Shown here in pieces: positions 20,190 through 55,571 of a stretch of DNA of 64,000 nt. A program made the position numbers and the translations under genes. The notes under the pieces are model-generated. The model searched no databases and was not told the DNA's origin. It was given only the letters and a program-made list of their open reading frames with translations. Source of the stretch: Actinomyces procaprae (GTDB taxonomy: Bacteria; Actinomycetota; Actinomycetes; Actinomycetales; Actinomycetaceae); the NCBI RefSeq assembly GCF_004798665.1, contig NZ_CP039292.1, forward strand, positions 496,001 to 560,000. Direction: 5' to 3'. The number at the start of each line of letters is the position of its first letter. The stretch's first letter is position 1.

Positions 20190-21248
20190 ATGACTATCAA
20201 GAAGGGCGTCTCCCTGTACTCACTGCAGGACGCCTACGGACGCGGCGGCCTCGGGCTCGAGGGCACCGTCGCTGCCGTCGAGGAAATGGGGACGCAGGGC
20301 ATCGAGATCCTCTCCGACGAGATGATCCGCGGCGCCGCGCGCGCCAGCGAGGAGACCCTCACCGAGTGGGAGGCGATCATGGAGCGCCATCCGCTCGAGC
20401 GCGTCTCCAACGACATCTTCATCAACTCATCCCTGTACAAGAACCGCTGGCTGACACTTGAGGAGCAGGTCGAGCTGCTCAGCGCGGACCTGCGCCTGAC
20501 TCACCGCCTGGGCTTCCCGCTGGTGCGCATCGTCTCCCAGACGGACCCGGCGGTCATCCGCCCGACCCTGCCGCTGGCGGAGAAGCTGGGCATCACCATG
20601 GCGGTCGAGGTACACGCCGGCATGAGCTTCGACCACCCGATGACGGAGGCCTGGATCAAGGAGATGAAGGAGGTCGACAACCCGCACGTCGGGCTCGTGG
20701 TCGACTTCGGCATCTACTGCCAGCGGCACCCGCGCGTGTCCACCAACTACTTCCGTGAGACGCTCGGGGTCAACGAGGACGTCATCAAGTACATCGACGA
20801 CATCTTCGCCCGCGGTACCGACCCGCGCCAGTTCTTCCCCCGCAACCCGGAAAACCCGGACGACTACCTGTTCCCGGAGGAGCTGACCCGGCACTTCCGC
20901 ACCTTCCAGGACCGCTTCTACGCCATGATGTCCACCGGGTATGAGAACACCCCGCTGGACACCCTGGACGAGTACCTGCCCTACATCAAGTCCTTCCACG
21001 GCAAGTTCTGGGAGGTCACCGATGAGGGCGAGGAGTACTCCATCGACTACGGCCGCATCTTCACCCGGCTGAACCAGCTGGGCTTCGACGGCTACGTGTG
21101 CTCCGAGTACGAGGGGCAGCGCTTCGTACTGCCGGGCGAGCCCATCGCCGACCTCGAGCAGGTGCGCCGTCACCAGGAGCTCATGGAACGGCACATAAGC
21201 GACGGCAAGGACGACGGCGCCGACGCCGCCCAGAACGACGGAAAGTGA
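20190..21248 (+). CDS. C-glycoside deglycosidase alpha-subunit-like TIM-barrel protein (paralogue 2)
   Basis: This 352-residue TIM-barrel protein has metal ligands E140 (AVEVHAGMSFDHP), D172 (VVDFGIYCQ), H270 (KSFHGKFWEV) and E306 (CSEYEGQRF). Nine bases downstream starts a DUF6379-type protein, the arrangement seen for the alpha and beta subunits of C-deglycosylation enzymes (CarBC, DgpBC, DfgAB). These cleave the C-C bond of a 3-oxo-C-glucoside to aglycone and an anhydro-keto-sugar. The start at 20190 follows a GGAGAGAGGA purine tract. A GH35-like gene follows. The exact substrate, and whether O-glycosides are also cut, cannot be read from sequence. Confidence 0.82.
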   Translation: MTIKKGVSLYSLQDAYGRGGLGLEGTVAAVEEMGTQGIEILSDEMIRGAARASEETLTEWEAIMERHPLERVSNDIFINSSLYKNRWLTLEEQVELLSADLRLTHRLGFPLVRIVSQTDPAVIRPTLPLAEKLGITMAVEVHAGMSFDHPMTEAWIKEMKEVDNPHVGLVVDFGIYCQRHPRVSTNYFRETLGVNEDVIKYIDDIFARGTDPRQFFPRNPENPDDYLFPEELTRHFRTFQDRFYAMMSTGYENTPLDTLDEYLPYIKSFHGKFWEVTDEGEEYSIDYGRIFTRLNQLGFDGYVCSEYEGQRFVLPGEPIADLEQVRRHQELMERHISDGKDDGADAAQNDGK

Positions 21249-21257
21249 GCAGCACTC

Positions 21258-21650
21258 ATGTTCGACGGATACATTTTCACTGAGAACTCTCTGGCCAACG
21301 TCGTGGAGGACGGCAAGACCGCCGGCTTCCAGATGCGTACCCGCATCCCCTACTACCGGGGCATTCCGCTGTCCATGGTGCACGACGTCGAGGTCGAGGT
21401 GGATGGCGAGGCCGTGCCCCGCGAGGACATCCGCTTCACCGCCGACGACGGCGAGCACTGGTTCACCCTGGAGGAGATGGAGACGGTCACCTTCTTCCGC
21501 TGGGAGTACGCCGACGAGGCCACCGTGCGCGTGCTGCGCGAGGGCGGGCTCGCCCCCGGCGAGCACGAGGTACTGCTGCGGGTCTCGGCGCGCGTGGCCT
21601 ACATTCCCGTGCCCTTCTCCGGCGAGATGAAGCGCACGGTCACCGTCTGA
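21258..21650 (+). CDS. C-glycoside deglycosidase beta-subunit-like protein (DUF6379)
   Basis: This 130-residue beta-sandwich protein starts MFDGYIFTENSLANV and carries the family-typical IPYYRGIPLSMVHDVEVEVDG and a terminal strand region with VSARVAYIPVPFSGEMK. The same skeleton recurs in the products at 44272 and 44727. In characterised complexes this subunit packs on the TIM barrel and closes the active site. The close spacing to the alpha gene supports co-translation. Confidence 0.82.
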   Translation: MFDGYIFTENSLANVVEDGKTAGFQMRTRIPYYRGIPLSMVHDVEVEVDGEAVPREDIRFTADDGEHWFTLEEMETVTFFRWEYADEATVRVLREGGLAPGEHEVLLRVSARVAYIPVPFSGEMKRTVTV

Positions 21651-21787
21651 GGCCACCTCAGGCACATCCCGACGACGGCGGCCCGGTTGGCTCCTCGCCA
21701 CCGGACCGCCGTCGTCGGACACCGGTTCCGCAACCGCCCACAACCGCCACAGCCCCGACCATTCCGAAAGCCGAAGGAGACGTTCCC

Positions 21788-23377
21788 ATGAACCGTATCG
21801 ACAGCCGCCACCTGGTGGTCGGGGGACACCCCCGGCTGCTGGTGGGCGGGCAACTGCACAACTCCACCAGCTCCGACATCGAGCTCGCCCGCGTCGCCTT
21901 CGACCGGGTGGTTGAGCTCGGCGGGAACGCCGTCACCGCCACCGCCAGCTGGCACCTGGTGGAGCCCCGCGAGGGCGACTTCGACTTCACGGGCGTGGAC
22001 GCGCTGATCGGCCTGGCGCGCGAGCGCGGCCTGGCGCTGACCCTGCTGTGGTTCGGGGCGTTCAAGAACGCCGCCTCCACCTACGCGCCCCGCTGGGTGC
22101 GTGCCGACGCCGGGCGCTTCCCGCGTGCGGAGGCCGGCGCCGACGGCGCCACCGGTGCCTTCACCCGACCGGGCACCCCCGTGCTGTCGGTGTTCTCTCC
22201 CGCTTTGCTGGAGGCCGACCGGCGCGCCTTCACCGCCCTGGCCCGCCACATCGCCGAAGTGGACGCCGACGGCACCGTGGTCATGGTGCAGGTGGAGAAC
22301 GAGACCGGCCTGCTGGGCGCCTCCCGCGATCATGCGGCCGACGCCGAGGCCGCCTGGTCCGCCCCGGTGCCGACGGCGCTGCTGGACTGGCTCGCCGCGC
22401 ACCCCGAGGCCACCGGCACCGCCTCGCGGCTGTGGCGCGAGCAGGGAGCGCCCGCCTCGGGCACGTGGACCCAGGTGTTCGGAGCCGGTCCGGGCGCCGA
22501 CGAGGTCTTCATGGCCTGGGGCTTCGCCTCCTACTGCGAGGCGCTGGCCGCCGCCGCGGCCGAGCACCTGGACGTCGCCTACTACGCCAACGCCTGGCTG
22601 GGCCCCCAGCCGGGGCAGGAGCTGCCGGGCCAGTACCCCAGCGGTGGGCCCGTGGCCGGCGTCGTGGACGTGTGGAAGGCGGCGGCGCCGACGCTCGCCC
22701 TGCTCGGCCCCGACATCTACGTCGACGACGTCAAGGGCGCCGTGGCCGGATACGTGCGGGAGGACAACGCGCTGCTGGTGCCCGAGTCGCGGGTGGCCGT
22801 CGGCAACGTCTTCTGGGCCGTCGGCTCGGGGGCGGTCGGCTTCAACGTCTTCGGGGTGGACGACCTGCGCCCCGACGGACAGTTCGCCGCCGCCTACCAC
22901 CTGCTCACCGGGGCGGAGGACGTGATCGTGGCGGCGCAGCGCGACGGCCGTATCCGGCCGGTGCTGCTGGAGGCGGATGAGACCGCCGTCGTCGAGCTGG
23001 GCGGCCTGACCTGGACCATGCGCGGCGCCGCCGACGTGCTGAGCAGAATCTTCCTCGATGCCGGCGTACAGGTGCGCACGCAGGCCCGCGGCGAGCAGGA
23101 GAACCTGGAGGAGGCGCTCATGCCCGCCCCGGCGGACACGCGCGCCATGGGCGTGCTGATCGACCTGGGAGAGGACGAGGTGCTGGTGATCGGCCAGGGA
23201 CTCATGCTGGAGGCGGCCGGTGCCCCGGGCGAGATCGTGGAGATCGACGACGCCGTCGAGGGCCGCTACGAGGCGGGGGAGTGGGTGAGTGGTCGCAACC
23301 TCAACGGCGACGAGCGCCTGAACCTGCTGCCGCTGGACCGCCTGGCTGCCGTGCGGGTGCGCGTGCTGCGGCGCTGA
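21788..23377 (+). CDS. GH35/GH42-like beta-galactosidase-type hydrolase (DUF5597 class)
   Basis: This 529-residue TIM-barrel hydrolase is similar to GanA-type beta-galactosidases. ASWHLVEPREGDFDF is the family's substrate-entry strand and MVQVENETGLLG holds the probable acid/base Glu. The C-terminal beta domain (from about residue 395) fits DUF5597. There is no signal peptide, so it would act on imported glycosides. It follows the alpha/beta pair by 137 bp with AAGGAGA before ATG 21788, probably in the same operon. The sugar it removes is uncertain. Confidence 0.75.
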   Translation: MNRIDSRHLVVGGHPRLLVGGQLHNSTSSDIELARVAFDRVVELGGNAVTATASWHLVEPREGDFDFTGVDALIGLARERGLALTLLWFGAFKNAASTYAPRWVRADAGRFPRAEAGADGATGAFTRPGTPVLSVFSPALLEADRRAFTALARHIAEVDADGTVVMVQVENETGLLGASRDHAADAEAAWSAPVPTALLDWLAAHPEATGTASRLWREQGAPASGTWTQVFGAGPGADEVFMAWGFASYCEALAAAAAEHLDVAYYANAWLGPQPGQELPGQYPSGGPVAGVVDVWKAAAPTLALLGPDIYVDDVKGAVAGYVREDNALLVPESRVAVGNVFWAVGSGAVGFNVFGVDDLRPDGQFAAAYHLLTGAEDVIVAAQRDGRIRPVLLEADETAVVELGGLTWTMRGAADVLSRIFLDAGVQVRTQARGEQENLEEALMPAPADTRAMGVLIDLGEDEVLVIGQGLMLEAAGAPGEIVEIDDAVEGRYEAGEWVSGRNLNGDERLNLLPLDRLAAVRVRVLRR

Positions 23378-24927: not shown

Positions 24928-26301
24928 TCACGCGTCCTGACGGCGGTGGGTGACCAGCTCCTGCACCCCCACCGGGGAGCCGTGGGGGAGCCAGACGTGC
25001 ATGACGTGAGCGGATAGCAGGCGGTCGGTGACCATGCGGCAGGCACCTGCCAACGCGTCGTCGCCGTTGCCCATGCGTACGCGCAGGCGCTCGGAGGTGG
25101 CCGGCAGGACGCGACGCCGCAGAGCCTGACCGACCGCGCGGGAGAAGAAGCCGCCGGCCTCGGCCACGCCACCGCCCAGCACGACCTCCCCGGGGTTGTA
25201 GGTGGTGGTCAGTACCGCCAGCACCACCGAGAGCCGGTCCGCGGCCTCGGTCAGCAGTCGCATGCATACGGGGTCGCCCTCCGCTGCGCCGCGGAAGACG
25301 TGTTCGCAGCGGATGCCTCCGGATTCGTCGAGTCGGCGCAGATAGGAGGAGCGCTTCAGGGCCTGCGCGGTGACGGCCGCCTCCTCCATGGCGCCGCCGG
25401 ATAGCGTCGTCTCCAGGCACCCCTTGCGTCCGCAGCGGCAGGCGCGTCCCCCCGATCCCGTCATCTGGATGTGGGCGATCTCCCCGGAGGCCGCGGCGGC
25501 GCCCCGGTGCACCTGCCCGCGGGAGACGATGCCCATGCCGAGCCCCAGGCTGAGGCGGACATATAGAAGGTCCTGGGGGGCGCCGATGCGCTTCGCGGCG
25601 GCCAGCGCCAGGACGTTGACCTCGTCGTCGACCCACACCGGTAGGCCCAGCGCCTGCGCCAGGCGGCTGCGCAGCGGGAAGCCGGTCCAGCTGAGGGTGT
25701 CCGAGGCGCCGCCGGTCCTGGCCGTGGCCGGGGCGATCAGGCTCCCGTCGCGGAAGTCCACGGTGGTCGGGATGCAGGCGCCCACGCCCCAGGTAGGTGG
25801 AAGCTCGGGGTGGCGGTCACGCAGCGCGGTGAGGTGCTCCAGGGCGTGCCGGGTGACCGTCTGCGGATCGCTGAGAATGCCCTCCTCCCAGCTGGCCCGA
25901 TCGATGATTGCGCCGTTCAGGTCCGTCAGTGCGGCGGTGCTGGAACGGTAGGAGATCGACAGGGCCAGGATTGTGGCCGCGGACGGATTGAACCGCCACA
26001 TCTCCGGGGCGCGGCCGCCGGTGGACACGCCCCGGCCGGCGGGGGAGAGCAGCCCGAGCTCGACGGCGGTCTTGAGCCGCCGGTCGACGGCGTTCCGGCC
26101 CAGCGTCAGGGTCTCGGACAGGTCGGCGCGGGAGACTCCCTGGGGATACTGCCGTGCCTCAGCGACGAGGTCGGCCAGTTGGGATACGTGGGCGAAGGAG
26201 GGGCTGCGGGGCTGCGTGGCAGCGCGCGTGGGAGTCCCCTGCGGGGACGATGAGGAGTTGGGCGGCCGCAGCTCGTCATGCCTGCTACGTTGGGGCGTCA
26301 C
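24928..26301 (-). CDS. ROK-family transcriptional repressor 2
   Basis: This protein of about 457 residues has an N-terminal winged helix (QYPQGVSRADLSETLTLGRN) and a ROK domain with CRCGRKGCLETTLSGGAM (zinc site) and LLYVRLSLGLGMGIV. The frame stays open to 26517, but sequence before the GTG at 26301 has no family character, so I take 26301 as the likely start; this is uncertain. It is divergent from the GPH symporter operon and probably represses it in response to an imported sugar. The TTTTGC-N9-GCAAAA palindrome between them is a candidate operator. Confidence 0.85.
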   Translation of the reverse strand: MTPQRSRHDELRPPNSSSSPQGTPTRAATQPRSPSFAHVSQLADLVAEARQYPQGVSRADLSETLTLGRNAVDRRLKTAVELGLLSPAGRGVSTGGRAPEMWRFNPSAATILALSISYRSSTAALTDLNGAIIDRASWEEGILSDPQTVTRHALEHLTALRDRHPELPPTWGVGACIPTTVDFRDGSLIAPATARTGGASDTLSWTGFPLRSRLAQALGLPVWVDDEVNVLALAAAKRIGAPQDLLYVRLSLGLGMGIVSRGQVHRGAAAASGEIAHIQMTGSGGRACRCGRKGCLETTLSGGAMEEAAVTAQALKRSSYLRRLDESGGIRCEHVFRGAAEGDPVCMRLLTEAADRLSVVLAVLTTTYNPGEVVLGGGVAEAGGFFSRAVGQALRRRVLPATSERLRVRMGNGDDALAGACRMVTDRLLSAHVMHVWLPHGSPVGVQELVTHRRQDA

Positions 26302-26363
26302 ACGGGCAGTGTCCGCCGCGCTTCGGTGCGCGTCAACCGAAATCAGGGCATCAATGCTGCGAC

Positions 26364-26384
26364 TTTTGCCTCTAACGTGCAAAA
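26364..26384. promoter_or_regulatory. Candidate operator TTTTGC-N9-GCAAAA
   Basis: This perfect 6-bp inverted repeat with 21-bp span stands out in GC-rich DNA. It lies in the divergent region between ROK 2 and the symporter operon. A related half-site, CGTGCAAAA, occurs near 20006 in the other ROK-controlled divergent region. Confidence 0.4.
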
Positions 26385-26671
26385 CATTCGGATTATCGTC
26401 TGGGCTCCAACTCTTTTGCTGCATGGGTGGCGAGAGTCCCCTGAGCGGGGGCGATGGGTTGCGAGGGAGGCGATGTGGGGTATGCGATGCGGGCGGGGCA
26501 TACCTGGCCTTATGCACGGGGAGTGCGAAAGTGTGGCCTGCTCCACTTGTTGGTCGTCGTGGGTGCGCGTTGACTGGCTGTCAGAACGCAACGAGGTGCG
26601 GACGTCGCAGTCCCTGGCCTCGGGAGTTCCGGGCAGAGCAGCCCGCACTTCGCATCACAGAAAGGCCCGTC

Positions 26672-28162
26672 ATGACGACGCAGTCTGCGGCACCCGCCAA
26701 GAAGGGGGCCCAGGTCCCCCTCAAGGAGAAGATCTCCTACGGCTTCGCCGAGTTCGGCTCCCAATTCATCTGGACCACAGTCGGCTCCTACCTCATCACC
26801 TTCTACACCGACATCGCGCTCATCCCAGCGGCGGCGGCGGCGAACATCCTGCTCGTCGCCCGTGTTCTGGACGGCTTCCAGGACCTCGCCTTCGGCTACG
26901 TGGCCGAGCGCACGAAGAGCCGCTGGGGCCGCTTCCGTCCCTACGTGATCTTCGGTGCCCCGCTGCTGTCGATCAGCATGATCCTGGCGTTCTGGATGCC
27001 GTTCCACGGCGGTAACGGCGCCAAGATCGCCTGGGCGGGCATCGCCTACGTGCTCCTGTGCTTCCTCTACACCGTCGCCAACATGTCCTACGGCTCACTG
27101 GCCGGCGTCATGACCACCGACTCCGGCGAGCGCGTCATCCTCAACTGGGTCCGTAACATCGGCTCTCAGGCGGCCGGGCTGATCCTGGACGTGGCCACCC
27201 CCTTCCTCCTGGTCTCCCTGGTTGCCTCCGAGGCCGCCAAGGATCGCGGCTTCGATAACCGCTCCTACTTCCTGACGATGCTCATCTTCGCGCTTATCGC
27301 CTTGCCGGCCTTCCTCATCACGGGTCTCAACGTTCGCGAGCGCATCACCATGACCCCCGAGCAGCAGAAGGTTCCCTTCAGCCGGACTGTTAAGGCGGTC
27401 GTGACCAACGATCAGCTCATGGTCGTCTTCTTCACGCTGCTGTTCCAGCTGTTCGGCCTCTTCGGCCGTATCGGCATCATGTTCTACTACTGCCGCTGGA
27501 TCCTGGGTAACCCGCTCCTCATGGCCGGTGTCATGCTCGCCTTCCGAGTCGGCACGATCATCGGTAGTGTCACCCTGCCGCCCTTCGCCCTCAAGCTGGG
27601 CAAGCGCAACATGATGATGGCCTCGGTGCTCTCAGGCGGACTTATCCTCCTGCTCATCTTCTTCTTTGGGCAGACCAACATCACGGTGCTCCTCGCGCTG
27701 CAGTTCCTTTACGGCCTGTCCGGCTTCGCCTCTCCGATCGCCCTTTCCATGGTGCCCGACGCCGTCGACTACTACGAGCACAAGACCGGCATCCGCGCCG
27801 ATGGCACCTCCTACGCGACCGTCTCCCTGTCCACCAAGTTCGCCAACGCGATCGGTGGCGCCGCCGCCCTGTACATCATGGGCTGGTTCGGTTACAACGG
27901 GGCCCTTGAGGTGCAGAGCGCCAGCGCGCTCACGGGCATCAATATCGCCGCCAACCTGGTGCCGGCCATCATGGCCTTCCTCGCCTTTGTCCCGCTCCTG
28001 TTCTGGAAGCTGGACACCAAGACGATGGCCAAGATCTCCGCTGAGCTCGAGGTCAAGCGCGCCGCCCGGGCGGAGGCCCTCGCCGAGGGAGTCAGCCGTG
28101 AGGAGGCCGAGCGCCTCGCCGAGGCGGCCGAGCGCGCCGCCGCGGAACGCGGCGAGATCTGA
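26672..28162 (+). CDS. GPH-family glycoside/pentoside/hexuronide:cation symporter
   Basis: This 496-residue permease has about 12 membrane helices. KISYGFAEFGSQFIWTTVGS, then ARVLDGFQDLAFGYVAERTKSRWGRFRPYVIF, is the GPH signature of helices 1-4 with the conserved Asp and the R-x-G-x-x-R loop. The C-terminal tail is charged and rich in Ala/Glu (residues 450-496). It imports glycosides with a cation. AGAAAGG precedes ATG 26672; the frame is open far upstream without meaning. It heads an operon with GH3, esterase, GH43 and GH106-like genes, so these enzymes probably act on sugars imported intact. Confidence 0.92.
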   Translation: MTTQSAAPAKKGAQVPLKEKISYGFAEFGSQFIWTTVGSYLITFYTDIALIPAAAAANILLVARVLDGFQDLAFGYVAERTKSRWGRFRPYVIFGAPLLSISMILAFWMPFHGGNGAKIAWAGIAYVLLCFLYTVANMSYGSLAGVMTTDSGERVILNWVRNIGSQAAGLILDVATPFLLVSLVASEAAKDRGFDNRSYFLTMLIFALIALPAFLITGLNVRERITMTPEQQKVPFSRTVKAVVTNDQLMVVFFTLLFQLFGLFGRIGIMFYYCRWILGNPLLMAGVMLAFRVGTIIGSVTLPPFALKLGKRNMMMASVLSGGLILLLIFFFGQTNITVLLALQFLYGLSGFASPIALSMVPDAVDYYEHKTGIRADGTSYATVSLSTKFANAIGGAAALYIMGWFGYNGALEVQSASALTGINIAANLVPAIMAFLAFVPLLFWKLDTKTMAKISAELEVKRAARAEALAEGVSREEAERLAEAAERAAAERGEI

Positions 28163-28285: not shown

Positions 28286-30583
28286 ATGAACGCCGCCGCA
28301 GCCGTCAACTCCGCCGACCACGCCGACACCAGCCCGAAGAGCCCCGCCGCCCAACTCACCGACGCCCAGCGCGAGCGCATCGAGTCCATCCTCGCCTCCC
28401 TCACCTGGGAGGAGAAGCTGGCGCAGGCACAGGTCACCTTCAAGATGACCACCGAGGAGTGCCTGGAGGCGGCGCGTGCCGGTATCGGCGCCCTGTTCTG
28501 GCCCGGCAACGCGGCCGACGCCAATGCGATCCAGCGCGCCGCGGTGGAGGAGACCCCGCACGGCATCCCCCTGCTCATCGGCCTGGACGTCATCCACGGC
28601 CAGCGCACCATCTTCCCCACCCCGCTGGCCATGGGGGCGTCCTTCTCCACCGCCGTCGCCCGCTCCTGCGCCGCCGTCTCCGCCGTCGAGGCCCGCTCCG
28701 GCGGCGTCACCTGGACCTACTCGCCCATGGTGGACGTCGCCCGCGACCCGCGCTGGGGCCGCGTCGCCGAGGGCTTCGGGGAGGACCCCCTGCTGACCGG
28801 CGAACTCGGCGCCGCCATGGTTGCGGGCTACCAGCACGAGCGCCTGGACGAGCCCGGCACCATGGTGGCCACCGCCAAGCACTTCATCGGCTACGGCGCC
28901 GTCGAGGGCGGTCGCGACTACAACACCGTGGACATGTCCGACCAGCGGCTCCACTCCGTGTACCTGCCACCCTTCGCCGCCTGCGTGGACGCCGGCGTCG
29001 GCTCCGTCATGGCCTCCTTCAACACCGTGAACGGCCGCCCTGTGCACGCCAACCGCCGCCTGCTCACCGACCTCCTCAAGGACGAGCTCGGCTTCACCGG
29101 TGCGATCGTCGGCGACGCCTCCGGCGTGGAGAACCTCATCCCCCACGGTGTGGCCGCCGACCTGCGCGACGCCGCCCGCATGTCGCTGTTCGCCGGGCTC
29201 GACATCGAAATGGGCGGGCACCTGCACGACCCGGCCGCCCGCCCCGACCACCCCGCCCTCCTGGACGGTGACGACCCGGCCCTGGTGGCCCGCGTCGACG
29301 ACGCCGTCCGCCGCGTTCTGGCCCTCAAGCTGGCCCTCGGCCTGTTCGACAACCCCTACGTGGACCCCGCCGCCGAGATCACCGCCCCCACCCCGCAGCA
29401 CCTGGCCGCCGCCCGCGCCGCCGCCGAGAAGTGCCCCGTGCTGCTCACTAACGACGGCTCCCTGCCGATCGCCCCCACCGCCCGCCGCATCCTGCTGGCC
29501 GGCCCGGCCGCCACCCACACCGACCACCTGGGCGCCTGGGTGCAGCACTTCGCCGCCCCACCCACCCGCTCTCTCGCGGACGCGCTGGCCGCGGCCCTGG
29601 AGGCCCGCGCCGCCGACGCCGGCACGCCCGCCCCCGAGCTGACGGTGCTGGGTGGGCAGGACCCGCTCGGCGTCACCGGGGAGGAGGTCGACGCCGTCGC
29701 CGCGGCCGCCGCCGACGCCGACCTGGTGATCCTCGCCCTGGACGAACCCAGCCAGCTCACCGGCGAGGCCACCTCCCGCGCCGACCTGCACCTGCCCGGC
29801 GACCAGGCCGCCCTCGTCCACGCCGTCGCCGCCACCGGCACGCCCCTGGCCGTGGTGCTCGTGGCCGGGCGCCCGCTGGTCGTGGAGGACTGGATCGAGG
29901 AGCCGGGCGCCGTCCTGGCCGCCTGGCACCTGGGCACCACCGGCCCGGAGGTCATCGCCGACGTCCTGACCGGCGCCATCAACCCCTCCGGTCGCCTGCC
30001 CATCGGCTTCCCCCGCCACTCCGGGCAGCTCCCCGCCACCTATGACGCCCACGAGAACACCGGCCGCCCCGCCACCCGCGGCGGGGAGATGATCAAGCCC
30101 GTCTTCGACATGGGCCTGGACGGCCCCGCCAACCTCCAGGAGTTCTTCACCTCCAAGTACCGCGACCTGCCGCTCGGCCCGCGCTTCCACCTCGGCCACG
30201 GCCTGTCCTACACGAGCTTCGCCTACCGCGACGCCGCCCTGAGTCGCGCCACCATCTCCCGGGCCGAGCTCGACGCCGGCGCTACCGTGGAGGTCACGGC
30301 CGCGGTCGCCAACACCGGGGAGCGGGACGGTGAGGACGTGGTGCTGCTGTTCACCCGCGACGTGCTCGCCTCGCTCGCCCCCGCCGTGCGCAGGCTCGCC
30401 GGCTTCCAGCGCGTCACTGTTCCCGCCGGCGGCAGTCAGGCGGTCTCCTTCCGGCTGGACCGCAGCCACCTGGCGCTGTGGGATGACGACGGGGAGGGCT
30501 GGCGCGTCGAGCCCGGCGATTTCGAGATCCGCCTCGGGGACGACCCCGACGCCGAGCCCCTGCTGCTGACCGTCACCGACTGA
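28286..30583 (+). CDS. GH3 beta-glucosidase / beta-xylosidase
   Basis: This 765-residue enzyme has the GH3 N-terminal barrel with GLDVIHGQRTIFPTPLAMG and KHFIGYGAVEGGRDYNTVDM, and the probable nucleophile Asp277 in TGAIVGDASG. The (alpha/beta)6 domain contains LVILALDEPSQLTGEA, and a C-terminal fibronectin-III-like domain with EDVVLLFTRD and LAGFQRVTVPAG follows. There is no signal peptide, which suggests intracellular hydrolysis of beta-glycosides brought in by the GPH symporter 124 bp upstream. Glucose versus xylose specificity is open. Confidence 0.93.
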   Translation: MNAAAAVNSADHADTSPKSPAAQLTDAQRERIESILASLTWEEKLAQAQVTFKMTTEECLEAARAGIGALFWPGNAADANAIQRAAVEETPHGIPLLIGLDVIHGQRTIFPTPLAMGASFSTAVARSCAAVSAVEARSGGVTWTYSPMVDVARDPRWGRVAEGFGEDPLLTGELGAAMVAGYQHERLDEPGTMVATAKHFIGYGAVEGGRDYNTVDMSDQRLHSVYLPPFAACVDAGVGSVMASFNTVNGRPVHANRRLLTDLLKDELGFTGAIVGDASGVENLIPHGVAADLRDAARMSLFAGLDIEMGGHLHDPAARPDHPALLDGDDPALVARVDDAVRRVLALKLALGLFDNPYVDPAAEITAPTPQHLAAARAAAEKCPVLLTNDGSLPIAPTARRILLAGPAATHTDHLGAWVQHFAAPPTRSLADALAAALEARAADAGTPAPELTVLGGQDPLGVTGEEVDAVAAAAADADLVILALDEPSQLTGEATSRADLHLPGDQAALVHAVAATGTPLAVVLVAGRPLVVEDWIEEPGAVLAAWHLGTTGPEVIADVLTGAINPSGRLPIGFPRHSGQLPATYDAHENTGRPATRGGEMIKPVFDMGLDGPANLQEFFTSKYRDLPLGPRFHLGHGLSYTSFAYRDAALSRATISRAELDAGATVEVTAAVANTGERDGEDVVLLFTRDVLASLAPAVRRLAGFQRVTVPAGGSQAVSFRLDRSHLALWDDDGEGWRVEPGDFEIRLGDDPDAEPLLLTVTD

Positions 30584-30628: not shown

Positions 30629-31669
30629 ATGCGCTTCAACTCGATCCACGACCCCGTCGTCGTCACCGCGGGCCCCGAGAAGGTCGGCCGCGTCGCCGGC
30701 GTCCACGGCGAGCGGATTCACGTCCTGGACGGCCTGCCCCCGCGCGGCCCCGGATTCACCGCCGAGCATCAGGCCCAGGCGGCCCGCTACGACCTGCCGG
30801 TCGAGCCGGTCGACCTGCCCGAAGTGGACCGCCGGGACGATGCGGCCCCCGGCCCGCACGGGGACGTGCCCGTGCGCGTGTACACCCCGCACGGGCTCGC
30901 CGCCCCCGACGCCGCCGGCTGCCGCGGCGCCGTCGTCTGGATTCACGGGGGCGCCTTCATCTTCGGCGACCTGGACATGCCCGAGGCCGACCACACCGCC
31001 GCCCGCCTGGCCGAGGCCACCGGGCTGCCCGTGATCAGCGTCGACTACCGGCTCGCCGTCGACGGCGTCACCCATCCCGTCCCGCACGACGACTGCTGGG
31101 CCGCCTACCAGTGGGTGCGCGCCGGCGGGCATGGACTGCCCACCGACCCGGCCAGGGTGGCCGTCGGCGGCGGCAGTGCCGGAGCCTGCCTGGCGGCCTC
31201 GGTCGGCTTGCACGGGCGCGACGCCGGGCAGGCCCCCGTCGGCGTCTTCCTCGCCTACCCGCTGGTGCACTACCCGCTGCCGGAGCCATCCGCCGAGCTT
31301 GCCGCCGTGCTCGCGACTCTCCCTCCTCTACTGTGGGCCGGCCGTGAGGCCGCTGTCGCCCAGAACGACTACCTCATCGGGCAGCTCCTCGGACCCGAGA
31401 TGACCGGCGTCGAGCACTTCGACTACGCCATGCCCGGGAACGCCGAGTCCCTGGCCGGCTACCCGCGCACCTACATCGAGAACTGCGAGGCTGACGACCT
31501 GCGCGCCTCCGGGGAGCGCTTCGCCGAGCAGCTCGCCCAGGCGGGCGCCGACGTGGAGCAGCACACCGTGCCGGGGGAGACCCACGGGCACCTGTCCGTG
31601 CCCGGCCTGCCCACCGCCAAGGCCACCTGCGCCCACTTCGCCGCCTTCATCGGCGACGTGCTGCGCTGA
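30629..31669 (+). CDS. Alpha/beta-hydrolase, HSL-type esterase
   Basis: This 346-residue esterase has the oxyanion-hole motif HGGAFIFGD (106-114), nucleophile Ser183 in GGGSAGAC, and the distal ECEADDLRA-like Asp and GETHGHLS His regions. The family hydrolyses short acyl esters, including acetyl groups on glycans and phenolics. GAGGAGG precedes ATG 30629. Its place between GH3 and GH43 in one operon suggests it deacylates plant glycosides. Confidence 0.88.
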   Translation: MRFNSIHDPVVVTAGPEKVGRVAGVHGERIHVLDGLPPRGPGFTAEHQAQAARYDLPVEPVDLPEVDRRDDAAPGPHGDVPVRVYTPHGLAAPDAAGCRGAVVWIHGGAFIFGDLDMPEADHTAARLAEATGLPVISVDYRLAVDGVTHPVPHDDCWAAYQWVRAGGHGLPTDPARVAVGGGSAGACLAASVGLHGRDAGQAPVGVFLAYPLVHYPLPEPSAELAAVLATLPPLLWAGREAAVAQNDYLIGQLLGPEMTGVEHFDYAMPGNAESLAGYPRTYIENCEADDLRASGERFAEQLAQAGADVEQHTVPGETHGHLSVPGLPTAKATCAHFAAFIGDVLR

Positions 31670-33304: not shown

Positions 33305-33333
33305 GGGCCGCACGTCACAGCCAGGAGCACACC

Positions 33334-36300
33334 ATGACCGCGCCCGCCGACCTGCGCCGACCCGCCACCCGTGCCGCCCTGACCCGGGCGCGCTTCGCCA
33401 CCCCGGAGATGACCGACCGGCCCGGCATCCGCTGGTGGTGGCAGCAGCCGGTTCCGGTTGAGGAGCTGCTCGAGGAGCTGCGGGCCATCGCCGCCGCCGG
33501 CTTCGGGGAGGTGGAGATCGCCTTCTCGCCCGGCTTCTGGGCCGACGCCGCCCAGCGTGAGGCGCTGGCGGCCGTCCTGGCCGAGGCCCGGCAGCTGGGG
33601 GTGGGGGTGGCCATGACGCTCGGCGCCGCCTGGCCGCTGCAGACCCCCAACACCACCCGCGGCACCGCCTACGCCGCCCAGGAGCTCCAGTACGGGGTGA
33701 GGTGGGTTGAGGGCGAGGGCCGGGCGGAAATCCGGGGCGACGCCGGCCGGGCAGGCGCCGAGGAGTCCGCCGAGACTCATGGGCCCGGCGGTGGCCGTGG
33801 CGGCGCGGTCACCACCCCCGTCCCCACCCCCTTCGACGACGCGGAACTGACGCGCGGCGGGAGGCTGGTCGCCGTCGTCGCCGCCCGGGTGGTCCGACGC
33901 GGCACACCACCGCGGGTGGTGGACTCCGGCAACCCCTGGGGCAAGCCGACCAAGATCATCGCGCCCGAGCACTCCACCCTCCTGGACGAGACCACCCTGA
34001 CCGACCTGACCGGGCAGGTGCGCGGGGAGGGGGCCGGCGCCGTCGTCGACTGGGAGCCCGGGCCGGCGCAGTGGGCGCTCATGGCCTTCTGGAGCCGCGA
34101 CAGCGAGCAGGGGGTGACCAGCTTCCTGGACGGTGCCGCCGCCCGCGCCGCCCTGACCTACCTGGACGAGCACCAGCTCGGGCCGGAGGGTGCTGCCGCC
34201 CTGGGGGCGGAGGGGGCCACCGGCACCGAGCTGTTCGAGGACTCCCTGGAGCTGAACGCCGACTGCCTGTTCTGGAGCCCCGACCTGCATGAGCGCTTCC
34301 GGGCCCGGCGCGGCTACGACCCCACCCGCTACCTGCCGCTCCTGATCGCCCACGGCCAGTGCCGGTACTGGGTGCCCGAGGCGCCCCCGCGTCCCGACTT
34401 CGACTCCGCCGACCCCGACGGCGCCCCGACCTCGCTGGGGCGGCGCGTGCGCGCGGACTACGACCGCACCGTCACCGACCTGTACGTCACCGACCACCTG
34501 GCCCTGATCCAGGACTGGGCCGTCGGGCACGGCATGCGGCACAAGGCGCAGGCCGCCTACGGGCAGAACCTGGAACCGGTCCGCTCCTTCCGGGAGCTGG
34601 TGCGCTGCGGCGGGCGCGCGGAGGTGGAGTCCCTGAACTCCGGGGACCGTGTGCCCATCAGTATGGGCCACCCGAACTGGCGCTTCGCCCTGGACTGGCA
34701 GCGCAGCTGCGTGGCCGGCGCCCACCAGGGCGGGGCCGTGCGCGTGTCCACCGAGCTCGGCGCCCAGATGGACAAGTGCTACGACTTCTCCCTGGCCGAC
34801 TACCGGCACATGCTGGACAAGGAGTGGGCGGTGGGCATCACCAAGCCCTTCGTGCACGGCTTCGCCGCCCAGGATGGCGAGGCGCCCTGGCCCACCCGCG
34901 GCCGATTCGGCACGGTGGTCTCCGAGTCCTGGAACCACCGGCACTTCCCCCAGTGGGAGCACTGGAAGGGCCTGACCGACTACTGGGCGCGCGGCACCGC
35001 CGTGCTGGAGACCGGCACGCCCCGAGCGGATGTGGCCGTCTACCGGGACGGCTTCCTGACCACCGCCGCCCGCGGCAACGCCGAGGCCGACGCCACCGCC
35101 CCCGGCCGGCTCATCGACGCCGAGCCCCTGGAGCGCGCCGGCTACAACGTGCAGATCCTCGACCCGGTCGGTCTGGCCGAGGAGGGCGCGATCGGCGTCG
35201 GACGTGACACGGAAGCCGGTGGGACGGTGCTCTTCCCCGGCGGGCCCGCCTACCGGGCGCTGGTACTGGATGCCGCGCTTCAGGGCGGCGCGATCCCGTT
35301 GGATGCGGCCCGCGCGCTGGCGCGCGCCGCCGCGGCGGGACTGGCGATTGTGCTCGTTGGTCGGCCGCCCACCGGGGATGCCGGCTGGGGTGGCGCCGAC
35401 GCCGACGCGGCGGTGCGTGAGGCGGTCGCTCCGTGCTCGCGGGGCCGCGCGTGCAGCGGGTGGACGCCTGGGCGCAGGTGCCCGGGGCGCTCGTGGCACT
35501 CGGGGTGCGGCCTCGCGTGGCCTGGAACGGGCCGGTGCTACTGACCCAGGTGCGTGACGCCGCCGAGGGCCGCTACGTGCTCGTCTACAACCCCGCCGCG
35601 CAGGCGGTGGCGCTGCCGCTGGAGATCGAGGGGACCGGGCGCATGGAGGTGTTGGACCTGGACACCGGCGAGATCACACCGGTGGGTGCCGAGGCGGCCG
35701 CCGGGTGCACGCGGGTGGAGGCCTGCCTGGAGCCGCTCGGCTTGGCGATGCTGCGATTGGTATCCGCGCAGCCCGGGCCGGGTACCGGTGAAGTTGCGGG
35801 GGCGGGCGGGGCCTGTGCCGTTGCCGGGGCCGTCGTCGGTGCGGGTGCGGCCGGGCCCGGGCGGCGAACCGGAAGCGGCGGCGGGGAGTTCGTGCTGACG
35901 GACTGGAGCCTGACCGTCATAAGTGAGGAGCCCGCCGGGCCCCGCACCATCGTCCTGCCCGGGCAGGGACCCGGCGACTGGCGCGACATCGCGGTGCTGA
36001 AGGACATCTCTGGAACCGGCGTGTACCGGGCGCGCGTGGAAGTCGGTAGTGGCGCCGACGCTGGCCGGGCTGCGCTCGCGGATGCGGTGCTGACGCTCGG
36101 GGAGCTGGGCGGAAGCGCCCTGGTGCGGGTGGGCGACCGGGTCTTCGGGCCGGTGCTGCGCGATGACGCGGCCGTCGCGATCGGGGGCGCGCTGGCGGCG
36201 GCCGTGGCCGCGGGCCGCGAGCCGATCATTGAGATCGAGGTGCGCACGACGCTGCGCAACGCCACCCTCGCGGCCGACGCCTACATGACCGGCCCCTGGG

Positions 36301-36377
36301 CGGTCGAGCACCCAAGCAGCCCCCACGGCCTCCTCGGCCCCGTCCACCTCCACTACCCCCTTCGCCGAGGTCGGTAG
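33334..36377 (+). pseudogene. GH106-like alpha-L-rhamnosidase-type hydrolase, frameshifted
   Basis: Two overlapping frames make one protein of about 1,015 residues. The first (ATG 33334, RBS CAGGAG) reads GIRWWWQQPVPVEELLEELR and AAGFGEVEIAFSP, typical of GH106 and related hydrolases, through LEDSLELNA-type barrel motifs. Near 35420-35435 coding shifts to the -1 frame and continues as SVLAGPRVQRVDAWAQVPGA through a C-terminal beta domain to 36377. One missing base explains the shift. Downstream codon use stays strong, so decay is recent or the change is a sequencing error. The first 23-nt repeat copy supplies the last codons and the stop. Rhamnosidase activity would fit rutinoside or neohesperidoside substrates. 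Confidence 0.7.
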
Positions 36378-41864: not shown

Positions 41865-42989
41865 ATGAGCAAGAAGCTTCGCATCGGCATCGTGGGCCTG
41901 GGATTCATCGGAACCCAGAAGCACCTGGTGGGCCTGGCGCAGCACAAGGACAAGTGCGAGATCGTCGCCTTCTGCGACTTCGACATTGAGCGCGCCGAGG
42001 CCGGCAAGGCCCAGTGGGGCAACGAGGACGCCTACACCACCACCGATTACAAGGACCTCGTGAACGACGACTCCATCGACGTCATCCACGTGTGCACCTG
42101 GAACGCGAACCACTGCGAGATCACCTGCGCCGCCCTGGAGGCCGGCAAGCACGTCATGGTGGAGAAGCCCATGGCCGTCACCGGCGAGGACGCCCGCAAG
42201 ATGCGCGACACAGCCAAGCGCACCGGCAAGAAGCTCACCGTCGGCTTCCAGTACCGCCAGCGCGAGGAGTACCAGTTCCTCAAGGCCCTGGCCGACGAGG
42301 GCAAGTTCGGCGAGATCTACGCCGCCAAGGCCCACGCCACCCGCCGCCGCGGCGTGCCGATCTGGGGCGTGTTCACCGACAAGACCAAGCAGGGCGGCGG
42401 CCCCCTCATCGACCTGGGCGGCCACTCCATCGACGTCGCCCTGTGGCTGATGAACAACTACGAGGTCGCCTCCGTCACCGGCGTGGTCAACTACAAGCTG
42501 GCCGACAAGCCCGCCGGCAACATCGGCGGCGAATGGGACCCGGCCACCTACGAGGTTGAGGACTCCGCCTTCGGCTTCGTCACCTTCAAGAACGGCGCCT
42601 CCCTGTTCGTCGAGGCCTCCTGGGCCCTGAACATCAAGGCCGCCCGCGAGGGCTGCATCACCATCATGGGCACCGAGGCCGGCGCCGAGACCATCCAGGA
42701 CCCGGCCGGCTCGGCCAACCTGGTCGTCGACGTCAACTCCATCGAGGGCGGCAAGCAGGTCAACACCGGCTTCGGTGAGGGCGGTGCCTACTTCTCCGCC
42801 GGTGCCGCCGGCGGCGCCCAGACCGGCTTCTCCTACATGGGCGGCCTGGAGGCCGGCCTGTGGCTCGACGCCATCCTGAATGACACCGAGCCCTACGTGA
42901 CCGCCGACCAGGCCGTCGTCGTCACCGAGATCCTCGACGGCATCTACAAGTCCGCGGCCCAGGGCGGCAAGCCCGTCTACTTCGACTGA
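41865..42989 (+). CDS. Gfo/Idh/MocA-family oxidoreductase (DgpA-like sugar dehydrogenase)
   Basis: This 374-residue protein has an N-terminal NAD(P)-binding fold (IGIVGLGFIGTQKHLVGL) and the signature VMVEKPMAVTGEDARKM with the catalytic Lys of the EKP motif. The C-terminal sheet contains GGGPLIDLGGHSIDVALWLM, whose Asp/His pair is typical of the family. In C-glycoside pathways a DgpA-type enzyme of this family oxidises C3 of the sugar to a ketone, which activates the bond for the alpha/beta complex. It precedes two alpha and two beta genes here, which supports that role. ACAGGAG lies before ATG 41865. Confidence 0.88.
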   Translation: MSKKLRIGIVGLGFIGTQKHLVGLAQHKDKCEIVAFCDFDIERAEAGKAQWGNEDAYTTTDYKDLVNDDSIDVIHVCTWNANHCEITCAALEAGKHVMVEKPMAVTGEDARKMRDTAKRTGKKLTVGFQYRQREEYQFLKALADEGKFGEIYAAKAHATRRRGVPIWGVFTDKTKQGGGPLIDLGGHSIDVALWLMNNYEVASVTGVVNYKLADKPAGNIGGEWDPATYEVEDSAFGFVTFKNGASLFVEASWALNIKAAREGCITIMGTEAGAETIQDPAGSANLVVDVNSIEGGKQVNTGFGEGGAYFSAGAAGGAQTGFSYMGGLEAGLWLDAILNDTEPYVTADQAVVVTEILDGIYKSAAQGGKPVYFD

Positions 42990-42990
42990 C

Positions 42991-43253: not shown

Positions 43254-44270
43254 ATGACCTCGCAAATCAAACGCGGAGTCAGTCTGTACTCATATCAGCA
43301 CGAATACGTTCACGGCACCATGGACCTCGAGGATTGCGTCGCCGCAGCCGCCAAGGAGGGTGCGCTGGGGATCGAGACCCTCGGCGAGCAGATGATCCCC
43401 GGTTTCCCCTTCCCCGGGCAGGCGGATCTGCCGGACTCCTTCTACTCCTGGTGGCAGGACCTCATGGCGAAGTACGGCACCACGCCGACCGTCCACGACA
43501 TGTTCCTGGACACCAAGCGCTACCGCGGCCGCCTGCTCAACCACTCCGAAATGGTCGACTCCCTCAAGCGGGACATCCGGCACACCGCCAAGCTCGGCGC
43601 CAAGGGCATCCGCATCATCGTCAACACCCCGCCCGAGGTCGTCGAGTCCGCGGCCCCCTATGCGCGCGACCACGGCGTGTGGATGGGCGTGGAGGTCCAC
43701 TCGCCATACTCCTTCGAGGACGACTGGATCAAGCGGCACCTGGAGGTCGCCGCGCGCGTGGGCTCCGACGTCGTCGGCTGCGTACCGGACATGGGCATCT
43801 TCGTCCACAAGCTGCCGCGCGTCGTCGTCGACCGGGCCCTGCGCGACGGCGCCGACCCGGAGCTGGCCCACGAGATCGTGAACACCTACAACTCCCACGG
43901 CGACACCCAGGCCCTCTTCGACCGCCTGGAGCGGCAGGGAGTCGACGGCGTCACCCTGGGCCTGGCCCGCAATGGCATCCACATGATCGCCCAGCCCGTG
44001 GACTGCCTGCGCGACCACGCCGAGTTCATCAAGCACATCCACGCCAAGTTCTACGAGATGCACCAGGTGGAGGGCTTCGACTACTGGCACGAGTACTCCA
44101 TCCCCTACCACGAGATCGTCCCCGTCCTGGAAGAGATCGGCTACGACGGCTACCTCTCCAGCGAGTACGAGGGAAACCGCCACATCGAGGACGCCGAGCC
44201 CGTCGACTCCGTCACGCAGGTCGCCGCCCACCAGAACATGCTCAAGGCACTGATCGGGAAGGAGAACTGA
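43254..44270 (+). CDS. C-glycoside deglycosidase alpha-subunit-like TIM-barrel protein (paralogue 3)
   Basis: This 338-residue protein has the same fold as the 17014 and 20190 products but is divergent. Ligand positions are E147 (GVEVHSPYSFEDD), D179 (VPDMGIFVHK), H263 (KHIHAKFYEM) and E304 (SSEYEGNRH). The N-terminus KRGVSLYSYQHEYVHGTMDLEDC aligns with the others. The matching beta gene starts one base after the stop. GAGAGGAG precedes ATG 43254. It most likely cleaves an oxidised glycoside made by the dehydrogenase upstream. Confidence 0.82.
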   Translation: MTSQIKRGVSLYSYQHEYVHGTMDLEDCVAAAAKEGALGIETLGEQMIPGFPFPGQADLPDSFYSWWQDLMAKYGTTPTVHDMFLDTKRYRGRLLNHSEMVDSLKRDIRHTAKLGAKGIRIIVNTPPEVVESAAPYARDHGVWMGVEVHSPYSFEDDWIKRHLEVAARVGSDVVGCVPDMGIFVHKLPRVVVDRALRDGADPELAHEIVNTYNSHGDTQALFDRLERQGVDGVTLGLARNGIHMIAQPVDCLRDHAEFIKHIHAKFYEMHQVEGFDYWHEYSIPYHEIVPVLEEIGYDGYLSSEYEGNRHIEDAEPVDSVTQVAAHQNMLKALIGKEN

Positions 44271-44271
44271 C

Positions 44272-44664
44272 ATGTTCGACGAGATGATCATTCGCGAGGG
44301 AAGCGTCCGCAACGTCACCGGCCCCGACGGCGAGGCGGTGGGCTTCTCCTTCGAGGCCCACATCCCCTACTACCGCGGCCTGGGACTGTCCATGATCGAG
44401 ACGCCCGACGTCGTCGTCGACGGCGAGGCGGTGCCCGCGGAGGACCTGCGCTTCACCTACGACGGCGTGACCCGCACCTTCGCCGAGCTAGCCGACGTCT
44501 CGGACGTGCGCTGGGAGCTGCGCACCTTCGCGACCATCACCGTCCTGCGGCCCGGCGGCCTGGCCCCCGGCGAGCACGACGTGCACGTGAACCTGCGCCT
44601 GCGCGTGTCCTACCTGCCGTTCGTCTCCGAGAACCGCTTCACCCGCAGGGTCGCGGTGGCCTAA
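44272..44664 (+). CDS. C-glycoside deglycosidase beta-subunit-like protein (DUF6379)
   Basis: This 130-residue protein begins MFDEMIIREGSVRNV and contains HIPYYRGLGLSMIETPDVVVDG and LRVSYLPFVSENRF. These are position-for-position equivalents of the 21258 product. It overlaps almost directly with the alpha gene (1-bp gap), so it should be made in equal amounts. Confidence 0.82.
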   Translation: MFDEMIIREGSVRNVTGPDGEAVGFSFEAHIPYYRGLGLSMIETPDVVVDGEAVPAEDLRFTYDGVTRTFAELADVSDVRWELRTFATITVLRPGGLAPGEHDVHVNLRLRVSYLPFVSENRFTRRVAVA

Positions 44665-44726
44665 ACAGTGTCACCTCACTGCTGCCTCACTAGCTACCAA
44701 ACTCGAACCAACCGAAGGAATCACCC

Positions 44727-45149
44727 ATGCCCACCAAATTCATGAAGCTCGGCTTCGACGAGCAGGTGCTGCGCCGGCTCGCCAACGACTCCGACGGCTA
44801 CGTCCTCGACGTCGGCCTCAACTACTACCGCGGCACCCCGATCTCCGCCGTCGAGCGGATGGAACTGAGCGTCGACGGCGAGCGGGTCGACGACGACCGC
44901 ATCCTGGTGGAGATCAACGGTAAGTTCCTGCGCCTGAAGCAGGTGCCGCTGGCATTCACCGAGTACTGGGGCGTCAAGACCCCGATCCGCCTGCACGTGA
45001 CCGGCGAGCCGCTGGCGGCCGGGCCGCACCACGTCGACTTCGTGTGCGAGGCGCGCGTCGTCTACATGCAGTTCGCCCCCGGCGTCTACGGAATGTTCGA
45101 CGCCTCCGCATCCGCCACCCTCGCCGTCGCCGAGAACTCTGAGAACTGA
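44727..45149 (+). CDS. Divergent DUF6379-type beta-subunit-like protein
   Basis: This 140-residue protein has the family core LNYYRGTPISAVERMELSVDG and a last strand VVYMQFAPGVYGMFD. The N-terminus (FMKLGFDEQVLRRLANDSDG) differs from the other two, and the tail is acidic. It precedes its alpha partner, the reverse of the other two pairs. It may serve a different substrate class. Confidence 0.75.
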   Translation: MPTKFMKLGFDEQVLRRLANDSDGYVLDVGLNYYRGTPISAVERMELSVDGERVDDDRILVEINGKFLRLKQVPLAFTEYWGVKTPIRLHVTGEPLAAGPHHVDFVCEARVVYMQFAPGVYGMFDASASATLAVAENSEN

Positions 45150-45163
45150 GGAGCAAGACCACC

Positions 45164-46165
45164 ATGGCAACGATCAACGGCATTGAACAGGGCATTTCCT
45201 GCTACAGCTACACCCAGGAGTTCATTGAGAACGACGACTGGAGCATCAACACGATCTTCGAGCATGTCGCCGCCAAGGGCGTCAGCAAGGTGGAGCTGGT
45301 CGGTGCCCAGACCTTCCAGCAGTACCCCACCCCGCGGCCCGAGGAGATCGACGCAGTGCTGGCCGCCGGCGCCAAGCACGGCGTGGAGGTCTTCTCCTAC
45401 GGCGGTTACGTGGACCTGGGGCGCATCACGGGCTACCGGATGAGCCGGGAGGACATCCTCTCCGACATCCGCCTGGACATCATGACCGCCCGCAGTCTCG
45501 GCGCGAAGTATCTGCGCGCCACCGGCTTCGAGCCGGAGCTCGCCCCCGCCGTCAACGACCTGGCCGAGCGCTACGGCGTGCAGATCGGCTTCGAGATCCA
45601 CGCCCCGCACACCCCGGCCGACGCCACCACCCGCGGCTTCATGGAGACGATCGAGAAGAATCAGCTCGGGTGCTTCGGACTGGTGCCCGACTTCGGCATG
45701 TTCATTGAGCGGCCCACCGAGATCGCCATCAACCGCTACGTGGGCCTGGGCGCCAAGCGGGAGACCCTCGACTGGATCATTGCCAACCGCCACAACGGCA
45801 TGACCGAGGAGGAGATGCAGGAGCACGTCGCCAAGAACATGGGCGGCGGCGAGGGGGAGAAGGTCGCCATCTCCGAATGGTTCGGCTACCTGTCCTTCGC
45901 GCCGGCGGAGCTCGACTCCTTCGCCGCGATGGTGCCGTATGTGAAGTACGTGCACGGCAAGTTCTACCACCTGGAACTCGACGCGGATGGCAAGGTCTTC
46001 GAGCCGACGATCCCGTATGAGAAGGCACTGTCCATACTGGCCGACGGCGGCTTCCAGGGCGCCTTCATCTCCGAGTATGAGGGCCACGCCTTCTACCTCA
46101 ACGACGCCGACGAGCAGCTCGACCGCCACCTGGCTCTCGGGAAGAGCATCCTCGAGAGCCTGTGA
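45164..46165 (+). CDS. C-glycoside deglycosidase alpha-subunit-like TIM-barrel protein (paralogue 4)
   Basis: This 333-residue protein is the most divergent of the four. Ligand positions are E144 (GFEIHAPHTPAD), D176 (VPDFGMFIE), H264 (KYVHGKFYHL) and E304 (ISEYEGHAF). It starts MATINGIEQGISCYSYTQEF and lies 14 bp after the third beta gene. The 23-nt repeat follows the stop by 27 bp. It could instead be an isomerase that handles the keto-sugar product. Confidence 0.78.
   Translation: MATINGIEQGISCYSYTQEFIENDDWSINTIFEHVAAKGVSKVELVGAQTFQQYPTPRPEEIDAVLAAGAKHGVEVFSYGGYVDLGRITGYRMSREDILSDIRLDIMTARSLGAKYLRATGFEPELAPAVNDLAERYGVQIGFEIHAPHTPADATTRGFMETIEKNQLGCFGLVPDFGMFIERPTEIAINRYVGLGAKRETLDWIIANRHNGMTEEEMQEHVAKNMGGGEGEKVAISEWFGYLSFAPAELDSFAAMVPYVKYVHGKFYHLELDADGKVFEPTIPYEKALSILADGGFQGAFISEYEGHAFYLNDADEQLDRHLALGKSILESL

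Positions 46166-53126: not shown

Positions 53127-55571
<2,445 letters not shown>

Follow-up and report, generated by a model that had tools for sequence, protein, structure and literature searches.

The stretch of DNA analyzed here (hereafter the window) comprises 64,000 nucleotides of Actinomyces procaprae (contig NZ_CP039292.1, forward-strand positions 496,001 to 560,000), drawn from a complete, single-contig genome of 3,600,355 bases. At 17.0–46.2 kb of the window lie genes for both subunits of C-glycoside deglycosidases (CGDs), accompanied by candidates for the oxidation and hydration steps of C-glycoside breakdown. A multi-copy C-deglycosylation locus with three alpha–beta pairs and one solo alpha had been predicted for 20190..46165 by a reader that saw the letters alone (the original prediction); matches to the beta-subunit profile PF19906 and to solved CGD alphas confirm that gene count, although the solo alpha (17014–18048) falls outside the interval said to hold all copies. 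Since this gene and a hydratase-like gene precede 20190, the start of the locus should better be placed near 13.6 kb. The features on which the argument turns are the following:

13626..14681, minus strand: probable 2-hydroxy-3-keto-glucal hydratase (AP_endonuc_2; PDB 2zds 448 bits, 8ro4 139 bits)
17014..18048, plus strand, likely start 17014: orphan CGD alpha (alpha4), its own beta deleted (9m3b 248.6 bits)
18049..18108, strand not applicable: beta4 deletion scar (from alignment with A. ruminis, G028)
20190..21248, plus strand: CGD alpha1, DgpC1 type (9m3b_A 308.6 bits, next 161.7)
21258..21650, plus strand: CGD beta1 (PF19906 135.7 bits)
41865..42989, plus strand: predicted DgpA-type Gfo/Idh/MocA glycoside 3-oxidoreductase (7xr9 DgpA 369.5 bits)
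43254..44270, plus strand: CGD alpha2 (8qvc_A, Deinococcus aerius CGD, 307.5 bits)
44272..44664, plus strand: CGD beta2 (PF19906 125.6 bits; 8qvc_B 94.5 bits)
44727..45149, plus strand: CGD beta3 (PF19906 67.7 bits; 9m3a_B 69.4 bits)
45164..46165, plus strand: CGD alpha3 (9m3a_A 119.3 bits; DgpC 7bvr_A 110.9 bits)
59929..61875, minus strand, start probably near 61659: GMC oxidoreductase, candidate second sugar oxidiser (PF05199 76.6 bits)

The three beta genes all exceed the cut-off (27.6 bits) of PF19906, the family CGDB or 'C-glycoside deglycosidase beta subunit', and a family search of the genome found these three copies alone. The original prediction had placed them in DUF6379; PDB beta chains titled 'DUF6379 domain-containing protein' are the basis for equating PF19906 with that former family. 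Each beta adjoins an alpha (gene starts 20190/21258, 43254/44272 and 44727/45164). All four alphas match PF01261, and the best solved-chain matches of each are CGD alphas: DgpC1 for alpha1 and alpha4, the D. aerius enzyme for alpha2, and 9m3a followed by DgpC for alpha3. For alpha4, the top 13 rows of the structure-match ranking are all CGDs and stand above every isomerase row. In a tree of alphas, alpha1 and alpha4 occupy neighboring groups of one lineage while alpha2 and alpha3 sit on separate long branches, and the locus therefore holds three CGD lineages, not recent duplicates of one. It is not a chance assembly: family scores lie far over the cut-off, and nine other Actinomyces genomes have the core as well.

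This recurrence was traced through stretches fetched from ten relatives, among them A. glycerinitolerans (G010), A. succiniciruminis (G041), A. ruminicola (G027), A. ruminis (G028), Actinomyces sp. AC-20-1 (G036), A. howellii (G012), and A. faecalis (G007). The Gfo–alpha2–beta2–beta3–alpha3 block, alpha1–beta1, and the genes for a GH3 enzyme, an esterase, a GH43 and a GH106 enzyme were each matched in nine of the ten, with the core genes on two contigs in A. succiniciruminis and some frames broken in A. ruminis (an 82%-complete draft); the tenth, G019, has one distant alpha–beta pair only. The accompanying species tree was built from five cluster genes, not from core genes. PF19906 occurs in 11 of 49 Actinomyces genomes. 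Within the family (213 genomes), 12 of 14 carriers hold at least three CGDB copies, as do four of the five other carriers in a 393-genome sample of the class, each of these four sets lying within 7–26 kb on one contig. Multiple copies are the rule among the CGDB carriers examined, and we rejected the notion that several copies in one locus are exceptional.

The catalytic residues agree with these assignments. In AgCGD2, the metal is bound by E147, D179, H269, K271, and E305; H149 is the base, and E307 assists (PMC8563793). All four window alphas retain the Glu/Asp/His/Lys/Glu metal set and the catalytic base His, and the E-x-H, H-x-K, and E-x-E spacings are present in every one; the full E/H/D/H/K/E/E set is invariant in a chosen alignment of 42 alphas (34 selected from 120 listed database homologues, plus eight from the window and relatives). 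The Glu-Asp-His-Glu positions of the original prediction are thus indeed conserved in all copies, but the numbering that it gave to the first, E140/D172/H271/E311, belongs to the solo alpha4, the remaining three alphas having E140/D172/H270/E306, E147/D179/H263/E304, and E144/D176/H264/E304. We rejected the metal residue set as a CGD diagnostic in itself, since the same three spacings can be seen by eye in the hydratase-like gene at 13626. On the beta side, the shared YYRG core is found as predicted in all three window betas, and in 33 of 35 beta-like stretches from the window and relatives; the other two read NYRG and WYRS, both keeping the second Tyr. That residue, retained in each window beta, corresponds to Tyr39 of PuCGE (counted by hand along 7bvr_B), whose change to Phe in the PuCGE beta lowers C-glucoside cleavage ~12,000-fold and O-glucoside cleavage just 2.4-fold (PMC10628242). 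Actinomyces sp. AC-20-1 has an extra, diverged alpha–beta pair (L027:11295-12637), in which WYRS replaces YYRG.

A Gfo/Idh/MocA dehydrogenase does lie beside the pairs, as the letters had suggested. Its matches to DgpA (7xr9, 369.5 bits) and DgpA1 (9m3d, 365.7 bits) stand far from the next solved family (93.4 bits), and these scores make the gene a homologue of DgpA. With a threshold of E 1e-70, it is present in all 14 Actinomycetaceae CGD carriers (47–51% identity in two) and in none of nine non-carriers, which are all Actinomyces, hand-picked without a rule from 38. Close homologues also occur in other actinobacteria (e.g. Raineyella, Demequina, and Actinotalea, among the 120 of 6416 matches listed).

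The GMC gene (59.9–61.7 kb), which had no place in the first account, is found in 10 of the 11 CGD-carrying Actinomyces (not G024) and in none of the nine non-carriers; it lies 1–21 kb from alpha3 in eight of the ten and on another contig in G019 and A. ruminis, where the match holds one in-frame stop each. It is the sole PF00732 match in the genome, and its nearest solved relatives are glucose/fructose dehydrogenases (6a2u, a glucose dehydrogenase, 112.9 bits). Scores against 7dve and 7qf8, which we take to be C-glycoside oxidases, are 30.3 and 31.6 bits; a CarA/PurA-type C-glycoside oxidase was accordingly rejected, the protein being far closer to 6a2u. It may be a second sugar oxidiser.

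The gene at 13626–14681, likewise missed at first as it lies outside the predicted interval, has as its best solved match 2zds (SCO6571), followed by the Agrobacterium tumefaciens 2-hydroxy-3-keto-glucal hydratase 8ro4 (AtHYD; 139.4 bits, E 1.4e-39), and probably encodes such a hydratase by homology. At E 1e-50, it recurs in 18 of 19 CGD carriers and in none of the nine same-genus non-carriers; the one miss is an 85%-complete draft, and the count includes G019, whose match holds an in-frame stop. In 16 of the 18 (the exceptions being G585 and G173), no more than 8 kb separates the gene from a CGDB gene. A hydratase fits the oxidation–elimination–hydration–reduction scheme described in PMC10628242; among open-licence papers, a search pairing 2-hydroxy-3-keto-glucal with hydratase returned none.

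The solo alpha4 is a family alpha without an adjoining beta in the window, and so is not a complete CGD. In A. ruminis, A. howellii, and Actinomyces sp. AC-20-1, a beta4 stands beside it; in the window strain, A. glycerinitolerans, and A. succiniciruminis, this gene is cleanly missing after the alpha4 stop. The window aligns with A. ruminis up to 18049 and again from 18109, A. ruminis having 416 bases in between that hold beta4, and DNA like the following ABM region (18109–18393) is at the same place in A. ruminis, A. glycerinitolerans, and A. succiniciruminis. Beta4 was probably deleted in the ancestor of the window strain and these two sister species, and retention of the beta in three relatives led us to reject an ancient single-subunit enzyme. 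Between the window and A. glycerinitolerans, alpha4 has a dN/dS of 0.10 (alpha1, 0.08), pairwise values that can hide recent relaxation, and none of 31 clade-invariant columns is broken in either copy (the column set took 34 database alphas as paired, their betas being assumed). Alpha4 is thus under purifying selection in these two strains.

Judged from these data, alpha4 most likely borrows beta1 or is being lost. A further reading, put at somewhat under even odds, is that alpha4 is a free-standing O-glycoside eliminase kept by selection after the loss of its beta, or that alpha1 and alpha4 share beta1 in a two-alpha, one-beta arrangement. That it is a decaying remnant without function seems rather unlikely: beta4 was lost in three species, alpha4 is broken in one of these (A. 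succiniciruminis), and it is absent from the fetched stretches of G024, A. ruminicola, G026, and A. faecalis, each genome having only three CGDB genes, but in the other two species that lost beta4 the gene is intact with low dN/dS. To our knowledge, an alpha-only eliminase is otherwise known just from a laboratory construct; were alpha4 free-standing, it would be a natural, evolutionarily tested one. Taken by itself, the possibility that alpha4 is a new single-subunit O-glycoside beta-eliminase, a natural counterpart of alpha-only PuCGE and functional analogue of AtOGE, is doubtful: the constraint on alpha4 after the shared deletion speaks for it, as does the PuCGE alpha, which alone retains ~1.4% of its activity on 3-keto-phlorizin and none on C-glucosides (PMC10628242), while the broken A. 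succiniciruminis copy and the CGD-like fold indicated by structure matches speak against it, and sharing of beta1 would explain the constraint equally well. The deletion is a natural experiment, offering matched alpha4 with and without beta4 for probing what the beta subunit contributes.

Around and between these genes lies the predicted island of glycoside hydrolases (GH35-like/DUF5597, GH3, GH43, and GH106, with an Abhydrolase_3 esterase), together with transport, regulatory, and other genes:

15080..15871, minus strand: second AP_endonuc_2 TIM barrel (PF01261 54.9 bits)
18109–18393, minus strand: ABM-family monooxygenase gene, directly after the beta4 deletion site
18589..19854, minus strand: ROK family regulator or sugar kinase (PF00480 162.5 bits), recurring in relatives' clusters
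21788..23377, plus strand: GH35-like/DUF5597 glycosidase (PF18120, PF01301; NF051902 450 bits, under its cut-off of 500)
23577–23954, between the GH35-like gene and the second ROK gene: transposase fragment (DDE_Tnp_1_2)
24928..26517, minus strand: second ROK family protein (PF00480 133.2 bits)
25973..28162, plus strand, true start probably near 26.7 kb: MFS_2 sugar transporter (PF13347 from residue 255, 286.9 bits)
28286..30583, plus strand: GH3 beta-glycosidase (PF00933, PF01915, PF14310)
30629..31669, plus strand: alpha/beta-hydrolase esterase, Abhydrolase_3 (PF07859 133.6 bits)
31739..33304, plus strand: GH43 glycosidase (PF04616 254.3 bits)
33163..35544, plus strand: GH106-like alpha-L-rhamnosidase, front part (PF17132 60 bits)
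35433..36377, plus strand: GH106-like rhamnosidase, rear part in another frame (the C-terminal third of a single GH106 ORF in six relatives)
36784–39198, minus strand: 804-residue kinase–phosphatase–ligase protein (AAA_33, Metallophos, RNA_lig_T4_1)
53973–58653, minus strand: GH1–PTS EIIABC–RpiR-type regulator block, between alpha3 and the GMC gene

The rhamnosidase (33163–36377) occupies two overlapping frames in the window and a single ORF of ~1010–1190 codons in A. glycerinitolerans, A. ruminicola, A. howellii, Actinomyces sp. AC-20-1, G026, and A. faecalis; the split is either a real lesion or a sequence error, and the idea that the conserved ORF at 35433 (314 residues) might be a new gene was rejected, the ORF being the rear part of this enzyme. 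The second AP_endonuc_2 gene was matched in the fetched stretches of five of the ten relatives (near full length in two), and the GH35-like gene had no match in those of A. ruminis and A. howellii. The ABM-family monooxygenase might, as a guess, act on released phenolics; after its gene, at 18440–18560, short imperfect tandem repeats (accgacctcgg...) apparently differ in copy number in A. succiniciruminis and A. glycerinitolerans. The 804-residue protein, which resembles RNA repair enzymes and is encoded inside the locus, and the GH1–PTS block were without a match in the relatives' fetched stretches. Upstream of the cluster genes, a search for shared operator motifs turned up no convincing site that they have in common.

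C-glycosyl flavonoids are resistant to ordinary glycosidases. We propose that the locus serves the utilization of C-glycosides, probably in gut-living Actinomyces of plant eaters (three of the nine core-sharing Actinomyces carry rumen-type species names, and a rumen origin is suggested by these names alone). The esterase and the GH106, GH43, GH3, and GH35-like enzymes would remove O-linked and acyl decorations of plant C-glycosides, after which the DgpA-type enzyme would oxidize the C-linked sugar at C3. Metal-assisted beta-elimination by one of the three alpha–beta pairs would then break the C–C bond, with the aglycone and 2-hydroxy-3-keto-glucal as products. The AP_endonuc_2 protein encoded at 13.6 kb would hydrate the glucal to 3-keto-glucose, and the Gfo enzyme may reduce this to glucose, closing the cycle. 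As its NAD would be re-oxidized in that last reduction, the cycle would need no oxygen. The three pairs, coming from three alpha lineages, would probably split the work by C6/C8 position or by aglycone. With a DgpA homologue, CGDs, and a hydratase candidate, every step from oxidation through elimination and hydration to reduction has a candidate gene in the window, and we give C-glycoside utilization by these steps a probability of about 0.85. What the sequences show are the gene identities, the catalytic residues, the synteny, the co-occurrence, and the loss of beta4; each reaction and its place in the order, the substrates, the habitat of the window strain, and the partner of alpha4 are inferred.

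Several observations weigh against this proposal. The structure to which the presumed hydratase is closest, 2zds, comes without a stated function; in the window strain a frame change splits the rhamnosidase gene, and alpha4 is broken in A. succiniciruminis. Of the five other CGD carriers in the class sample, none has a DgpA-type Gfo at E 1e-70; a GMC oxidoreductase is no farther than 0.3 kb from a CGDB gene in four of them and ~12 kb off, on the same contig, in the fifth (G477). The redox partner therefore varies, and a GMC gene is linked here too. The control for the co-occurrence of these genes with CGDs consists of the nine hand-picked non-carriers and so covers the genus Actinomyces alone; Fisher values take no account of relatedness. 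Finally, PuCGE also cleaves 3-keto-phlorizin, an O-glucoside (PMC10628242), and the main substrate might thus be something other than C-glycosides.

Taken further, this last point becomes a rival account, in which the locus degrades O-glycosides via 3-keto beta-elimination and C-glycoside cleavage is incidental. The many O-glycosidases within the locus, and the oxidation of O-glycosides by the DgpA homologue D3dgpA (PMC11239390), are consistent with it. We consider it improbable: the three betas keep the Tyr that is crucial for C-cleavage and minor for O-cleavage, and 3-oxo O-glycosides cleave non-enzymatically (PMC11239390), making three dedicated pairs superfluous for them. A reading of the alphas as ordinary sugar epimerases or isomerases, which membership of all four in PF01261 (a family covering many isomerases) might allow, is contradicted by the adjoining CGDB betas, by the CGD top match of every alpha and by the 13 CGD entries above any isomerase for alpha4, and has a negligible probability.

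The C-deglycosylation reading of the original prediction is thus supported and extended. We found no paper on C-deglycosylation in Actinomyces in the open-licence literature, and gut C-deglycosylation is credited almost wholly to Bacillota in PMC12724307; a conserved, complete, and apparently oxygen-independent Actinomyces route would add an actinobacterial lineage. In the carriers examined, CGDs go together with the hydratase, and this link is a possible marker for complete pathways. The same article assigns homologues of DgpABC to Bacillota and Pseudomonadota, and those of PurABC mainly to Actinomycetota, using joined queries and strict cut-offs, a phylum split that the present locus does not fit. 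The distribution described above suggests that which C3 oxidiser is used, a DgpA-type enzyme or an FAD oxidase, tracks lineage below the phylum, and perhaps habitat; since Gfo homologues occur in other actinobacteria, this Gfo/GMC split is a trend, not a law.

Among known systems, DgpABC of Dorea strain PUE (PuCGD/PuCGE) likewise joins a DgpA-type Gfo enzyme to alpha–beta CGDs, and alpha3–beta3 is nearest, among solved structures, to the DgpB2/C2 complex 9m3a and then to DgpB/DgpC; unlike it, the present locus has an actinobacterial host, three pair types together, and O-glycosidases and an esterase alongside. CarABC/PurABC of soil Actinomycetota share actinobacterial alpha–beta pairs but use FAD oxidases (PMC12724307), whereas here a DgpA-type enzyme adjoins the pairs and the GMC protein is nearest to glucose/fructose dehydrogenases. 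The Agrobacterium GlycDH–AtOGE–AtHYD–Gfo operon follows the same four steps of oxidation, elimination, hydration, and reduction and has the hydratase homologue, but AtOGE has no sequence similarity to CGDs and was inactive on the C-glycosides tested (PMC10628242). The Microbacterium testaceum CGD (8qrz/8un2) combines the same alpha and beta module families in one 435-residue chain, where here they are separate genes. Catenibacillus scindens and C. decagia have four and six dgpBC pairs per genome, reported with the same suggestion of broad substrate range (PMC11170127); as these multi-pair sets are already published, the main idea of the original prediction is right but not new in kind. In Catenibacillus, dgpA is reported to be separate from dgpBC (PMC11170127), whereas here the pairs, the DgpA-type gene, and the hydratase gene stand in one conserved locus.

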